Shown piece after piece: positions 4,486-59,848 of a stretch of DNA of 64,000 bases. This DNA is from Phycisphaerales bacterium PN19_bin_20. GTDB taxonomy: Bacteria; Planctomycetota; Phycisphaerae; Phycisphaerales; UBA1924. Position 1 is the first letter of the stretch. Each line of letters starts with the position of its first letter. The DNA is taken from assembly GCA_021173225.1 (NCBI GenBank), contig JAJOLK010000015.1:33387-97386 (forward strand), given 5' to 3'. The notes beneath the pieces were generated by a model, which had not been told where the DNA came from, ran no database searches, and saw only the letters and a list, made by a program, of their open reading frames with translations. Both the position numbers and the translations under genes were made by a program.

Positions 4486-6045
4486 TTAGGCCCGAGCGTC
4501 AACCCGCAAGGTGAGATGTTCGAGGACTCCGCCCTCATCCAGGCTTGCGTCGCGCTCCGGCGACGATCGGACGTGCCCCACGGTCTGGGCGACGTCCGAG
4601 GGGATCAACGCAAGGGGCTTGCCAGACGCGTCGGGGCCTGCGGGAGCCCCGCTAGAGCCTGTGAGCGCAAGACCGGCTTGTGCAGGCGCAACGGGAGCGG
4701 GCGCAAGATCGTCGGTGGTCTCGACTGAGAAGCTGTCGATGCGCAAGCCGCGACGCTCGATAGAGGCTTTCAGGTCAGCCTGGGAGCGCTCGACGGCGGA
4801 CCTTGCGGCGGCGGTACCGACCTGGAATTTGATGGAGACGACCTCGCCGGCGACGCGCATCTGGACGCGGACGCGGCCGAGCTCGGCGGGGTCAAGGCGG
4901 ATGGTGACCACGCGTTGCCCGGCGGGTGAGGGGATGTGCCGCAGGGTGGCGCTGAGGCCCTCGGCGAGCTGGGCGTCGATGGGCGGCGGGGTGCGAGCAG
5001 AACCGGCGGGAGAGCCGTCGGCGTTGCCTGAGTTGGGCTTGTTCTGCTTGTTGCCGGAGGCAGCGATTGGACCGGTGGTTGGCGCGAGTGACCAGATGTC
5101 TTGGCGGCTGGAGTGGCCAGGCGCGTCGAGACGGCCGGCGCGGTCAGGCAAGAGCAGCGACGAGATGCTGGCGGCCAGCGAGGTTGAGGTGATGATGCCG
5201 GCGAGGGCGGGGTCGCTGAGGGGCATGGGCGTAGCGGTGCCGCGGGCGACAATGTCGGCGGCGCGCTTGTCAGCGGCGACGGCGCGGGAATCGCTGTCAT
5301 CGCTGGCGGGGTCTTGGTCGTGCTCGGGGTTGTCGGGCTCGATTGCTTCGGGGCTCAAGTCGGCGGGCGAGCTTGGCGCGATGGGATCTGCGGCGGCGGA
5401 GCTCGAGGCGATATCGGCGCGCGGAGCGGCTTGATCTTGTGCGGCGTCGGCTGACCGCGCAGTGGCGCGGGCATCACCAGTGAGCCCGCGGTCGGCCTTG
5501 GCCTGCTGCGCGACGCCCTGCTGCGAAGACTTGACGGCCGTGCCCGAAGGTGCGGCGGCGAGCGCCTGAGCCACTTGCTGTGCTGAAAGGTTGGTGGCGT
5601 TTGACTGGGCGTTGGGGGCGTTGGGGTCTGAGGGCGCGGTCGTAGTACGGCGGGAACTGGCGGATGCGTTAGATGTGCCGTCGGCCGCGCTGTCGTCGGA
5701 GGGTTCTTTGAGCTTACCCGAGGCCTCGGAGTTGCCCGGGTCGGTGGTTTGGCGGCTATCGGCGGGCCTGGTGAGCTGGGCTTTGACGTCAAAGGCGCGG
5801 GCGGAGAGCGAGCCGCCCTGGAACTTGGCTGAGCGAGCCGAGCCGGCGCGGGCCTCGTTACTCTGCGAGGTCTGGCTAATGGGGCTTGACGCGCGGTCGA
5901 TCAGGATTTGGAAGGGGCTCTTGCGCACGTTCGGCGCGTTGATGTTGGCTCGCTGCGCAGGGCCTGCGCGGGTAGCGCTGGCGCGGAGCGAGGCGGAGCT
6001 CAAAGCGGTGAGGGCGAGATCAGCGGGGCTGGGCGTTGGTGTCAC
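4486..6045 (-). CDS. fliK: Flagellar hook-length control protein FliK
   Basis: C-terminal Flg_hook domain (RVVTIRLDPAELGRVRVQMRVAGEVVSIKFQVGTAAARSAVERSQADLKASIERRGL); low-complexity N-terminus; synteny. Confidence 0.85.
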   Translation of the reverse strand: MTPTPSPADLALTALSSASLRASATRAGPAQRANINAPNVRKSPFQILIDRASSPISQTSQSNEARAGSARSAKFQGGSLSARAFDVKAQLTRPADSRQTTDPGNSEASGKLKEPSDDSAADGTSNASASSRRTTTAPSDPNAPNAQSNATNLSAQQVAQALAAAPSGTAVKSSQQGVAQQAKADRGLTGDARATARSADAAQDQAAPRADIASSSAAADPIAPSSPADLSPEAIEPDNPEHDQDPASDDSDSRAVAADKRAADIVARGTATPMPLSDPALAGIITSTSLAASISSLLLPDRAGRLDAPGHSSRQDIWSLAPTTGPIAASGNKQNKPNSGNADGSPAGSARTPPPIDAQLAEGLSATLRHIPSPAGQRVVTIRLDPAELGRVRVQMRVAGEVVSIKFQVGTAAARSAVERSQADLKASIERRGLRIDSFSVETTDDLAPAPVAPAQAGLALTGSSGAPAGPDASGKPLALIPSDVAQTVGHVRSSPERDASLDEGGVLEHLTLRVDARA

Positions 6046-51191: not shown

Positions 51192-53255
51192 ATGGCAATC
51201 CTTCCGGCCAATCTTGCGCGGGTCCCCAGCTTCCTCGCGGCGCAGCTCTCCATCTCCGGAATCAACCGCACCAACATCGGCCTGCTCCGCGTGCAAAACG
51301 AGCTGACCACCGGCAACCGCATCGGACGCATCAGCGACGACCCCATCCGCGCCTCGGGCGTCCTCGCCCTCAATGACCGCCTCGGCCTCACCACCCAGCG
51401 CCTCCAGAACCTCGACCGTGCAAACTCTGTCCTCGGCACCCTTGACCAAGCCCTCAGCGACGCCAATGACGAGGTCGTCAACGTCCGCAACCTCGCCTCC
51501 TCCCAGATCGGCGTGCTCTCTGACCCCGGCCAGCGCGCCGCCATGGTCAGCCAGGTTGACACGGCCATCCAAACACTGGTCAACATCGCCAACCGCAGAA
51601 CCCTCGGGGTCTACCTCTTCGGCGGCTCGACGCCCAGCACACAGCCCGTGATCGCCCAAGACGGCGGCTTCCGCTTCCTTGCACAGGGCAACGGCCTGCT
51701 CGCAGACCTGGGCCTGGGCGACGCCGTGCCGATCACCCTTGGCGGGGCGAACGCACTTGGTGAGCTCTCCGCACGCCAACGCTCTACCACCACTCTCTCG
51801 CCAAACCTCACATCCTCTACACAGATCACCGATCTGCGCGGGGCCCGCGGCCTGGGCGTCACGCTCGGCCAAGTCCGCCTCTCCATCAATGGCAGCCCCC
51901 CGCTGAGCGTTGATCTCACCGGCGCGGCCTCCGTCACCGACGTCGCCGTCCGCCTCACCAGCGCCATCCGCGCCTTCGAGACCTCCACCTCCACCACCGT
52001 CCTTGGCGCGGGCGGGATCAACGTCGTCGGCCAGGGCTTCCTCTTTGACCTCGCCGCCGGTAACGCGCTGGCCTTCACCGACGAAGCCACCTCAACGACC
52101 GCCTCAGACCTCGGCCTCTCGCAGGCCATGATTACCTCGGGCGCGCCCGTCAGCGCCGCGCTGGCGCCAAAGCTCACGTCCGCCACGCCGCCGGGCGCAA
52201 TCCCCGGCCTCACCGTCCCGCTCGGGGTCATCCGCCTGCGCATGTCCGGGCCCGGCGCGTCCAGCTCCGTCCGCGATGTCGATCTCGCCGGCGCCAACAG
52301 CCTTGACCAGGTGCGCCAGCGCATCGAGTCCGCCGGCCTGGGCGCGCGGGTTCGCATCAATGACGACGCCACGGGCCTTGACATCTTCAACGAGGTCGCC
52401 GGACGCACCCTCTCGGTTGAGGATGTTCCCGGCGGTGACCCCACCGCTCAAGAGCTCGGCATCCGCACCTTCTTCGCCGGCACGCCCGTCAGTGCCTTCA
52501 ACAGCGGCCGCGGCGTCAGTGTCATCGACGGCCGCACAAACCAGGCCACCGGCGCGATCGACCCCGACCTCAACACCGATATGCGCGTCACCCTGGGCAA
52601 CGGCCAGTACTTTGACGTAGACCTGCGACCGCAAGACATGGTCAGCGTCCAGACCGTTCTTGACCGCATCAACCAGCAGTTCAATGACTCCGTCGGCTCT
52701 CAGAACAACACCGCCGCCCCCGCCATCGCCGCCGGGCAGTTCAGCGCCGGTCTTATCGACGGCCCCGGCGGGCTGGCCCTGACCCAAACCGTCGGCCCGG
52801 GCACCATCAGCGTCGGGACGCTCAACAACTCGCAGGCCGCCGAGGGCCTCGGGCTCACCGCGCTAACCCTCGAGCCCACCAGCGGCGCGCTGGTTGGGCA
52901 AGACCGCGCGGGCCTTCGCGTTGACAACGTTTTGACGGCGCTGATCGAGCTCCGCACCGCCCTCCAGAACAACAACTCGCCTGGCATCACTCTTGCGGGT
53001 GAATCACTGACCGCCGCCCTCGATCGCCTCCAGTCCGCTCAAGGTACCGTCGGCGGGTTCAACAAGCGTGTTCAGCAGCAGCAGACTCTCGTGACCGATC
53101 AGCAGCTCCTTGATGAAGAGATCAGAACGAACCTGATCGGGACAGACTACACAGAGGCCGCCGTCCGCCTCAACCAGCTCTCGACTCAGCTCGAGGCGAC
53201 GCTGGCGACCACGGCCCGCACCCAGGGGCGGACCCTCTTCGACTTCCTGCGCTAA
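51192..53255 (+). CDS. flgL: Flagellin-like hook-associated protein FlgL, enlarged
   Basis: QLSISGINRTNIGLLRVQNELTTGNRIGRISDDPIRASGVLALNDRL; C-terminal EIRTNLIGTDYTEAAVRLNQLSTQLEATLATTARTQGRTLFDFLR; 687 aa. Confidence 0.93.
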   Translation: MAILPANLARVPSFLAAQLSISGINRTNIGLLRVQNELTTGNRIGRISDDPIRASGVLALNDRLGLTTQRLQNLDRANSVLGTLDQALSDANDEVVNVRNLASSQIGVLSDPGQRAAMVSQVDTAIQTLVNIANRRTLGVYLFGGSTPSTQPVIAQDGGFRFLAQGNGLLADLGLGDAVPITLGGANALGELSARQRSTTTLSPNLTSSTQITDLRGARGLGVTLGQVRLSINGSPPLSVDLTGAASVTDVAVRLTSAIRAFETSTSTTVLGAGGINVVGQGFLFDLAAGNALAFTDEATSTTASDLGLSQAMITSGAPVSAALAPKLTSATPPGAIPGLTVPLGVIRLRMSGPGASSSVRDVDLAGANSLDQVRQRIESAGLGARVRINDDATGLDIFNEVAGRTLSVEDVPGGDPTAQELGIRTFFAGTPVSAFNSGRGVSVIDGRTNQATGAIDPDLNTDMRVTLGNGQYFDVDLRPQDMVSVQTVLDRINQQFNDSVGSQNNTAAPAIAAGQFSAGLIDGPGGLALTQTVGPGTISVGTLNNSQAAEGLGLTALTLEPTSGALVGQDRAGLRVDNVLTALIELRTALQNNNSPGITLAGESLTAALDRLQSAQGTVGGFNKRVQQQQTLVTDQQLLDEEIRTNLIGTDYTEAAVRLNQLSTQLEATLATTARTQGRTLFDFLR

Positions 53256-56177: not shown

Positions 56178-56396
56178 ACGTACCGCCTGTGACGTTTGTG
56201 ACCACTTTGCCGCCGCTGGCGCTGAATCCCGGACCTTGCACCTCCGATAGCTCAAATGGCCCGATATTCCCGGGCCACGGGATCCCCCAATGGACGGGGG
56301 AGCGGACGAGCAAACCGTGGGCGTGTGTCACGCACTCGGCCTCACCGCGAAAGTACCAGCAGGACTGCCGGCAACACGCTCGGCACGGAGGCACAC

Positions 56397-57890
56397 ATGA
56401 GCCGTATCAACACCAATGTCCCGTCTCAGATCGCCAGGCGCAACCTCAACGAGAACAACAAAACCCTCAACACCACGCTTGAGCGCCTCAGCACCGGCCT
56501 GCGCATCAACCGAGGCAAGGACGACCCCGCAGGCCTCATCGCCAGCGAGAACCTCCGCGCCGAAAAGTCGGCCCTCTCCGCTGCCATCAGCAACGCCGAA
56601 CGCGCAGACCAGCTCGTCAACATCGCTGAGGGCGGCCTCCAGGAGCTTTCGAGCCTGCTCACCGAGCTCCGCGGCCTCGTCACCAGCACCGCCAACAGCG
56701 CCGGCCTCTCCGGTGAAGAGAAGCAGGCCAACCAGCTCCAGATCGACTCGATCATCCAGACCATCGACCGCCTCAGCGAGGCCACCAACTTCCAGGGCGT
56801 CAAGCTCCTCAACGGCAACCTTGACTTCACCGCCACCGGCGTCAACGCCAACGTCAGCGACTTCAAGATCAACTCCGCCAAGCTCTCGGGCCCCACACAG
56901 GCCGTCTCGACCAGCCAGACCGCCTCCGCACAGCGCGGCTCGCTCCTGGTTGACCTCAACTCCGCCACCATCCAGACCACCGGCGGCGCACTCTTCACCG
57001 TCGAGATCACCGGCGCCACCGGCTCGCGTGAATTCGCCTTCGGCAACGGCACCACCACCGCCCAGGCCGTCACCGCCATCAACCAGTTCAAGGACGTCAC
57101 CGGCATCTCCGCCGCCCTCAACGCCTCGGGCCTGACCCTCAACAGCACCGAGTTCGGCTCAGAACAGTTCGTCCAAGCCCGCGTGGTCAACCTCGCCGGC
57201 GTCGTCGGTGCGCTCGTCCAAGGTACCGCCACCGACGCCGACGACTACACCGGCACCTCTACCGCACTTGCTGTTTCCGCGCTCGTTCGTGATACCGGCC
57301 AGGACATCAACGGTTCCATCAACGGCATCATCGCCACCGGCAAGGGCCGCAGCCTCCGCGTCGCCAATGACTTCCTCGACACCGAGATCACCCTCACCGC
57401 CGCCCAGGCCACCGCCGCCCCGGGCGCCGTCAACGCTTTCACCATCACCGGCGGCGGGGCCAACTTCCAGCTCGCCTCCAACGTCGACCTGAATGGACGC
57501 GTCTCCATCGGCATCCAGAATGTCTCCAGCCGCAAGCTCGGCAACAGTGCCCTGGGCTTCCTCAGCGACCTCACCAGCGGCAAGGACAAGAACGTCGTCG
57601 GCGGCGACATCCTCAGGGCCGCCAAGGTCGTCGAGGAGTCGATCCGCCAGGTCAGCGGCCTCCGCGGCCGACTCGGCGCGTTCCAAAAGAACGTCATCGG
57701 CGCCACCATCCGCAACCTCGGCATCAGCCTCGAGAACAGCTCCGCCGCCGAGAGCGTCATCCGCGACGCCGACTTCGCCGCCGAGACCGCGACCCTGACG
57801 CGAGGCCAGATCCTCTCCCAGGCCGCCGGCAACTCGCTGGGTCTGGCCAACCAGCAGCCCCAGGCCGCCCTGCAGCTCCTGCGAAGCTAA
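56397..57890 (+). CDS. fliC: Flagellin 2
   Basis: MSRINTNVPSQIARRNLNENNKTLNTTLERLSTGLRINRGKDDPAGLIASENL; C-terminal flagellin domain. Confidence 0.96.
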   Translation: MSRINTNVPSQIARRNLNENNKTLNTTLERLSTGLRINRGKDDPAGLIASENLRAEKSALSAAISNAERADQLVNIAEGGLQELSSLLTELRGLVTSTANSAGLSGEEKQANQLQIDSIIQTIDRLSEATNFQGVKLLNGNLDFTATGVNANVSDFKINSAKLSGPTQAVSTSQTASAQRGSLLVDLNSATIQTTGGALFTVEITGATGSREFAFGNGTTTAQAVTAINQFKDVTGISAALNASGLTLNSTEFGSEQFVQARVVNLAGVVGALVQGTATDADDYTGTSTALAVSALVRDTGQDINGSINGIIATGKGRSLRVANDFLDTEITLTAAQATAAPGAVNAFTITGGGANFQLASNVDLNGRVSIGIQNVSSRKLGNSALGFLSDLTSGKDKNVVGGDILRAAKVVEESIRQVSGLRGRLGAFQKNVIGATIRNLGISLENSSAAESVIRDADFAAETATLTRGQILSQAAGNSLGLANQQPQAALQLLRS

Positions 57891-57935: not shown

Positions 57936-57968
57936 AACGCCCTCAGGCCCACGCCCGGGGGCGTTTTT
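57936..57968 (+). terminator. Rho-independent terminator after flagellin 2
   Basis: AACGCCC...GGGCGTTTTT. Confidence 0.65.
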
Positions 57969-58286
57969 ACATCCTCACCTTCAACCGCTTTGAACGTCCG
58001 ACCACCACCCGCTCAGAGGTGCGCTCCATGCCGGTCGCACAAACCCTGACGGTTGTGACGGCTCACACACGCCCCCACCACGTCGGGCTTCTCCCAAGCT
58101 GTCAACACCCGCCCGCACCGCCCCGATGTTCTCCTTGCCCAACGCCGTCGCACGCGAAGGGCACGCGAACGCTCAGGAGGGCGACGCGGCAACACCGCTC
58201 GCTTGACAGCCGAACGCTCGGCTGGAGCGGGGCGGGAATTCGTACGGGTCGGCGGCCCTTCCCGCCCAGGCACACACGGAGGATTC

Positions 58287-59777
58287 ATGAGCCGTATCAA
58301 CACCAACCCCTCGTCCCTCATCGCCCAGCGCAACCTGAACGCCAACAACAAGGCGCTCAACACCACGCTCGAGCGACTGAGCACCGGCCTTCGCATCAAC
58401 CGCGGTAAGGACGACCCCGCAGGCCTCATCGCCAGTGAGAACCTCCGCGCTGAGAAGGTCGCGCTCTCCGCCGCCATCGGCAACGCCGAACGCGCCGACC
58501 AGCTCGTCAACATCGCAGAGGGTGGCCTCTCCGAGGTCAGCGGTCTGCTCGCCGACCTCCGCGGGCTCGTCACCAGCACCGCCAACAGCGCCGGCCTCTC
58601 GGGCGAAGAGAAGGCCGCCAACCAGCTCCAGATCGACTCGATCATCCAGACCATCGACCGACTTAGCGACGCCACCAACTTCCAGGGCGTCAAGCTCCTC
58701 AACGGCAACCTTGACTTCACCGCCACCGGCGTCAACGCCAACGTCAGCGACTTCAAGATCAACTCCGCCAAGCTCTCGGGCCCCACACAGGCCGTCTCGA
58801 CCAGCCAGACCGCCTCCGCACAGCGCGGCTCGCTCCTGGTTGACCTCAACTCCGCCACCATCCAGACCACCGGCGGCGCACTCTTCACCGTCGAGATCAC
58901 CGGCGCCACCGGCTCGCGTGAATTCGCCTTCGGCAACGGCACCACCACCGCCCAGGCCGTCACCGCCATCAACCAGTTCAAGGACGTCACCGGCGTCTCC
59001 GCCTCCGTTAACGCCTCGGGCCTGACCCTCAATAGCACCGAGTTTGGCTCAGAACAGTTCGTCCAAGCTCGCGTGGTCAACGTCGCCGGCGTGGCCGGTG
59101 CGCTCGTCCAAGGTACCGCCACCGACGCCGACGACTATACCGGCACCTCTACCGCACTGGCCGCCTCGGCCCTGGTCCGCGACGCAGGCCAGGACATCGC
59201 CGGCTCTATTAACGGCCTTCTCGCCACCGGCAAGGGCCGCACCCTCAAGGTCGCCAACGACTTCCTCGACGTTGAGATTACTCTCTCCGCCAGTCAGGCC
59301 ACCAGCGCCCCCGGCAGCCTCGCCGCCCTCACTATCACCGGTGGCGGTGCCAACTTCCAGCTTGACTCCAAGGTCAACCTCTCCGGCCGCACCTCCGTCG
59401 GCATCCAGAGTGTCTCCAGCCGTAAGCTGGGCAACAGTGCCCTGGGCAACCTCAGCGACCTCGCCTCGGGCAAGGACAAGAACGTCGTCAGCGGCGACCT
59501 GATCGCGGCCGGCAAGGTCATCGAGGAGGCCATCAAGCAGGTCAGCGGCCTCCGCGGCCGACTCGGCGCTTTCCAGAAGAACGTCGTCGGCGCCACCATC
59601 CGCAGCCTCAACGTCTCGCTCGAAAACAGCTCCGCCGCCGAGAGCGTCATCCGCGACGCCGACTTCGCCGCCGAGACCGCCGCGCTTACCCGCGGCCAGA
59701 TTCTCTCTCAGGCCGCCGGCAACTCGCTGGGCCTGGCCAACAGCCAGCCCCAGTCGGCCCTGCAGCTTCTGCGGTAA
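58287..59777 (+). CDS. fliC: Flagellin 3
   Basis: MSRINTNPSSLIAQRNLNANNKALNTTLERLSTGLRINRGKDDPAGLIASENL; close paralogue of flagellin 2. Confidence 0.96.
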   Translation: MSRINTNPSSLIAQRNLNANNKALNTTLERLSTGLRINRGKDDPAGLIASENLRAEKVALSAAIGNAERADQLVNIAEGGLSEVSGLLADLRGLVTSTANSAGLSGEEKAANQLQIDSIIQTIDRLSDATNFQGVKLLNGNLDFTATGVNANVSDFKINSAKLSGPTQAVSTSQTASAQRGSLLVDLNSATIQTTGGALFTVEITGATGSREFAFGNGTTTAQAVTAINQFKDVTGVSASVNASGLTLNSTEFGSEQFVQARVVNVAGVAGALVQGTATDADDYTGTSTALAASALVRDAGQDIAGSINGLLATGKGRTLKVANDFLDVEITLSASQATSAPGSLAALTITGGGANFQLDSKVNLSGRTSVGIQSVSSRKLGNSALGNLSDLASGKDKNVVSGDLIAAGKVIEEAIKQVSGLRGRLGAFQKNVVGATIRSLNVSLENSSAAESVIRDADFAAETAALTRGQILSQAAGNSLGLANSQPQSALQLLR

Positions 59778-59812: not shown

Positions 59813-59848
59813 CGCCGCCCGGACTCAACCCCGGGCGGCTTTCTTTTT
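59813..59848 (+). terminator. Rho-independent terminator after flagellin 3
   Basis: GCCGCCCGG-actcaacc-CCGGGCGGC TTTCTTTTT. Confidence 0.85.

Follow-up and report, generated by a model that had tools for sequence, protein, structure and literature searches.

A 324-nucleotide identical block in two tandem planctomycete flagellin genes is best explained by recent gene conversion

Why should two neighbouring flagellin genes that have diverged at both ends share an internal stretch base for base? The question is raised by a locus within a 64,000-nucleotide stretch of DNA, hereafter the window, from Phycisphaerales bacterium PN19_bin_20 (GenBank assembly GCA_021173225.1, contig JAJOLK010000015.1, positions 33,387 to 97,386), in which flgK, flgL, fliW and csrA are followed by flagellins 1, 2 and 3 and by an xerC-like integrase gene (Table 1). 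All three flagellin proteins match both Flagellin_N and Flagellin_C above the Pfam cut-offs, as bacterial flagellins of the FliC family do; flagellins 2 and 3 are 88% identical in amino acid sequence, and flagellins 1 and 2 are 40% identical. Among the sampled genomes the class A flagellin is present in at most one copy and class B in one to three copies. A tight sigma-28-like pattern is matched four times in the whole window, including the sites 5′ of flagellins 2 and 3; the other two matches lie at 5434 on the minus strand and at 1785 on the plus strand. A search of the region for sigma-70-type promoters found none, and its terminator-like hairpins number seven against 4.9 expected, so that each is weak singly. 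The combination of a sigma-28-like site 5′ and a hairpin 3′ of each gene suggests that flagellins 2 and 3 may be transcribed separately.

Table 1. Coordinates of the flagellin genes, the shared block and the neighbouring candidate signals in the window.
Feature	Position	Strand	Remarks
Flagellin 1, class A, 517 aa	54517..56070	+	Flagellin_N and Flagellin_C; outside the exchange
Sigma-28-like promoter candidate, flagellin 2	56223..56250	+	Pattern match TGAA-N17-CCGATAG; putative function
Flagellin 2, class B, 497 aa	56397..57890	+	Flagellin_N, Flagellin_IN, Flagellin_C
Probable conversion tract, flagellin 2 copy, codons 129-236	56781..57104	+	100% identical to 58671-58994; dS = 0
Shoulder, intermediate divergence	57105..57268	+	Partner 58995-59158; 11/164 differ; dS 0.15
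Terminator-like hairpin 3′ of flagellin 2	57951..57964	+	Weak singly
Sigma-28-like promoter candidate, flagellin 3	58102..58129	+	Pattern match TCAA-N17-CCGATGT; putative function
Flagellin 3, class B, 496 aa	58287..59777	+	Flagellin_N, Flagellin_IN, Flagellin_C
Probable conversion tract, flagellin 3 copy	58671..58994	+	100% identical to 56781-57104
Terminator-like hairpin 3′ of flagellin 3	59814..59839	+	Weak singly

Aligned over 1488 nt, the coding sequences of flagellins 2 and 3 show 173 mismatches and no gap, and the longest stretch that they share exactly measures 324 nt (offset 1890), the next longest common run being 56 nt. This block contains no difference at 83.7 synonymous and 240 nonsynonymous sites, whereas dS is 0.447 upstream (codons 1-110) and 0.375 downstream (codons 291-496), with about 14-18% of flanking positions differing between the two copies. 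In sliding windows dS takes values of 0.51, 0.44, 0.39 and 0.31 on approaching the block, is zero inside it and then reaches up to 0.58. The preliminary description of the locus had reported both the perfect identity, synonymous sites included, and the divergence of the flanks; both are confirmed, and the sliding-window dS that it had proposed as a check is not uniform, falling to zero only within a single, sharply bounded block. When the mismatch positions were permuted 100,000 times, the longest run obtained was 136 nt and none reached 324 nt; likewise, the run free of codons with synonymous differences spans 114 codons, against a permutation maximum of 70, and a two-change-point fit places the borders of the block exactly at 56781 and 57104, with a log-likelihood ratio of 45.7 against a permutation maximum of 12.9. 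The absence of any change at these 83.7 synonymous sites puts the 95% upper limit on divergence since an exchange at about 0.036, less than one-tenth of the flank value. An excess of identity that is sharply bounded, extends to silent sites and is flanked by divergence on both sides is characteristic of interlocus gene conversion; a search of the genome for a third copy of the block found none, the block being common to the class B pair only.

The tandem position of flagellins 2 and 3 and their gapless alignment would also fit a recent duplication of the whole gene, followed by fast divergence at both ends. This account is extremely improbable: the ends stand at a dS of about 0.4 and cannot have gained silent changes so fast while the centre gained none, and the intergenic regions upstream of the two genes are unrelated, apart from short chance matches. 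A fresh whole-gene duplication is therefore rejected by the synonymous pattern together with the intergenic DNA.

To the right of the block, identity stays above background (11 differences in 164 nt, then 108 in the next 616), and the change-point model gains 6.9 log units when this shoulder is added. The shoulder may be what is left of a conversion that was older or extended further, and could also be explained by rate variation.

As an alternative to conversion, the preliminary description had named selection for an identical block. At the nucleotide level this would mean purifying selection through an overlapping signal, an RNA element or codon constraint, and the slightly higher GC3 of the block (0.935, against 0.76-0.92 elsewhere in the two genes) goes in that direction. 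Comparison with relatives, which are planctomycete MAGs, many of them labelled Phycisphaerales, speaks decisively against it: between same-genus genomes the segment differs by 26-36% in DNA, with third-position differences of 0.32-0.47 that are similar to those of other segments, and across the family codons 129-236 show a silent divergence of 0.38-0.44, much like the remainder of the gene. Nucleotide constraint on the block is refuted by this same-genus divergence, silent sites included, and retains a negligible probability. The comparison of orthologues in sister genomes, another of the checks proposed at the outset, thus found no nucleotide conservation of the block, and the identity within the genome has no matching conservation between species, as in interlocus gene conversion.

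The block is best explained by recent gene conversion between flagellins 2 and 3, a reading that we hold with high confidence and that agrees with the first interpretation of the locus: dS is zero only within the block, the intergenic DNA is unrelated, and same-genus orthologues lack nucleotide conservation. From this pattern we infer both the recombinational mechanism and the recency of the exchange. Flagellins 2 and 3 would be old tandem paralogues, in one of which a recent, presumably RecA-dependent, homologous recombination event would have overwritten 324 bp or more of internal sequence with that of the other, leaving copy number and flanks unchanged; the route may have been gene conversion in the strict, non-reciprocal sense or, with the same outcome, a double crossover between sister chromosomes. 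Homology for pairing could have come from a 44-bp common run just upstream (56727-56770) and from the generally high local similarity, and the right-hand shoulder may represent an earlier or longer exchange that has gathered mutations since. Flanking differences and GC3 identified no donor when used for the direction of transfer, the former agreeing with most relatives nearly as often for one gene as for the other (24 versus 25 and 44 versus 51).

Weaker traces of the same kind occur elsewhere in the family. Runs of silent-site identity at uncorrected p<0.01 were found in five of the 57 within-genome class B pairs (the pair in the window and four others) and in none of the 60 between-genome controls; relative to shuffles, the pair in the window is by far the strongest of the 57, with an unbroken run of 118 codons. 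The four other significant patches cover codons 31-51, 196-220, 238-268 and 272-381, and one belongs to a pair whose copies lie 332 kb apart on one contig (genome G056). These patches bear on whether short-read assembly collapsed the two copies in their middle, with loss of true differences. Such an artefact, a caveat of the preliminary description and the one doubt left about the tract, is quite unlikely, even though the source genome is a 59-contig draft, a 324-bp block exceeds common short-read lengths and k-mers, and graph-based assembly might have erased a few real differences from a stretch that was already very similar. Common assemblers merge bubbles only where the branches are already about 95% alike, so collapse would itself need a pre-existing block much more alike than its flanks; the adjoining shoulder, with its 11 differences, and the remainder of both genes were resolved; and the similar patches of other genomes include the widely separated copies of the single-contig G056.

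In the protein, the block corresponds to residues 129-236, running from the end of the long D1 helix halfway through the exposed, beta-rich domain. A structure model of flagellin 2, of moderate confidence (pLDDT 76.8, pTM 0.55), has helical ends and a beta-rich middle and places the D1 helix at residues 106-137, so that the block takes its last turns; the Flagellin_IN match at residues 201-251 also overlaps the block. Its location had been described as just after the N-terminal domain, which is nearly right, except that the block starts at residue 129 and the Flagellin_N match (4-141) reaches 13 residues into it. The span over half of the exposed domain invites a supplement to the conversion account, rather than a replacement for it, whereby selection in this lineage fixed the conversion because a common exposed surface is of advantage to the two flagellins, for instance in filament packing, glycosylation, or phage or grazer recognition. 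We regard such fixation as unlikely: across the 32 other genomes with at least two class B copies, comparison of within- and between-genome silent divergence by segment showed the centre to be no more homogenised than the remainder (difference 0.003, interval -0.056 to 0.055), and the significant patches in other genomes are scattered over the codon ranges given above. Since there is no family-wide centre preference, the central position of the tract is best read as chance. A stronger version is likewise doubtful, namely that in this lineage selection, and not chance alone, acts through repeated conversion to preserve identity in the exposed half-domain of two flagellins with separate transcription, giving rise to both the block and an older shoulder, while the core ends are free to diverge; if true, a selection-kept exposed half-domain with diverging filament-core ends would be the reverse of the usual flagellin pattern.

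Beyond the single tract, flagellin paralogues group genome by genome and gene order is conserved, as under recurrent concerted evolution. Family-wide, 65 of 78 genes are closest to another gene of their own genome (13 genes behave otherwise), and in the thirteen-gene subset nearest the window, same-genome copies cluster together in each segment where both can be placed; one gene, G001_b, is incomplete at a contig end and was left out of the C-terminal tree. The order fliW-csrA-A-B-B-xerC is kept wholly or partly in sister genomes, its A-B-B-xerC portion being whole in G003 and G016 and partial in G002 and G001, and the wider group includes single-B loci with the same A-B-xerC order. Clustering and synteny favour an old flagellin pair that has probably undergone recurrent homogenisation; the clustering by genome could also come in part from independent or repeated tandem duplications.

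Concerted evolution and intragenomic recombination have been described for Campylobacter flaA/flaB (Meinersmann and Hiett 2000; Harrington 1997; Wassenaar 1995; as reported in PMC5126078 and PMC8535712), where, as in the present case, duplicated flagellin genes swap internal stretches within one genome. Unlike in Campylobacter, where flaA is under sigma-28 and flaB under sigma-54 (PMC5126078), putative sigma-28-like sites precede both genes in this planctomycete, and a third, divergent flagellin stays outside the exchange. The fla genes of Alteromonadales show long-lasting, recurrent concerted evolution (PMC6053082); in both groups flagellin paralogues are closer within than between genomes and synteny is conserved, but the planctomycete belongs to a different order, offers as evidence a single sharp, recent tract along with weaker patches, and may owe part of its pattern to independent duplication. 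A single literature search on the subject in this planctomycete group found no paper. The tract is a clear but ordinary case of gene conversion, of a kind already known for duplicated flagellins, and leaves the general picture of flagellin gene conversion unchanged; its value lies in showing such a tract cleanly in nature, between tandem flagellins and possibly with an older shoulder beside it. Phylogenies built from these flagellin genes will be misleading, and the central regions make poor markers.

Several other flagellin genes have features of their own. Locus L016 (CP053450.1, 4144-7530) contains one 1129-codon open frame that spans two flagellins, one of class A and one of class B; about 190 residues in, the class A part becomes arginine-rich and unlike flagellin, pointing to a frameshift or sequencing indel rather than a real fusion. 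Two contigs of genome G025 (C1:2-1234 and C12:2-1234) share their starting point within the flagellin (query residue 109), as would happen if an assembly breaks in a flagellin repeat. The start codon of the second class B flagellin in L008 (7938-9464) appears to be TTG (LSRINTNPSS...) instead of ATG. Finally, contig C26 of G000 carries a remnant of a further short flagellin-like gene (52166-52953; L004 1501-2288) that looks like a pseudogene, with an in-frame TAG inside the N-terminal match and the C-terminal match in another frame.
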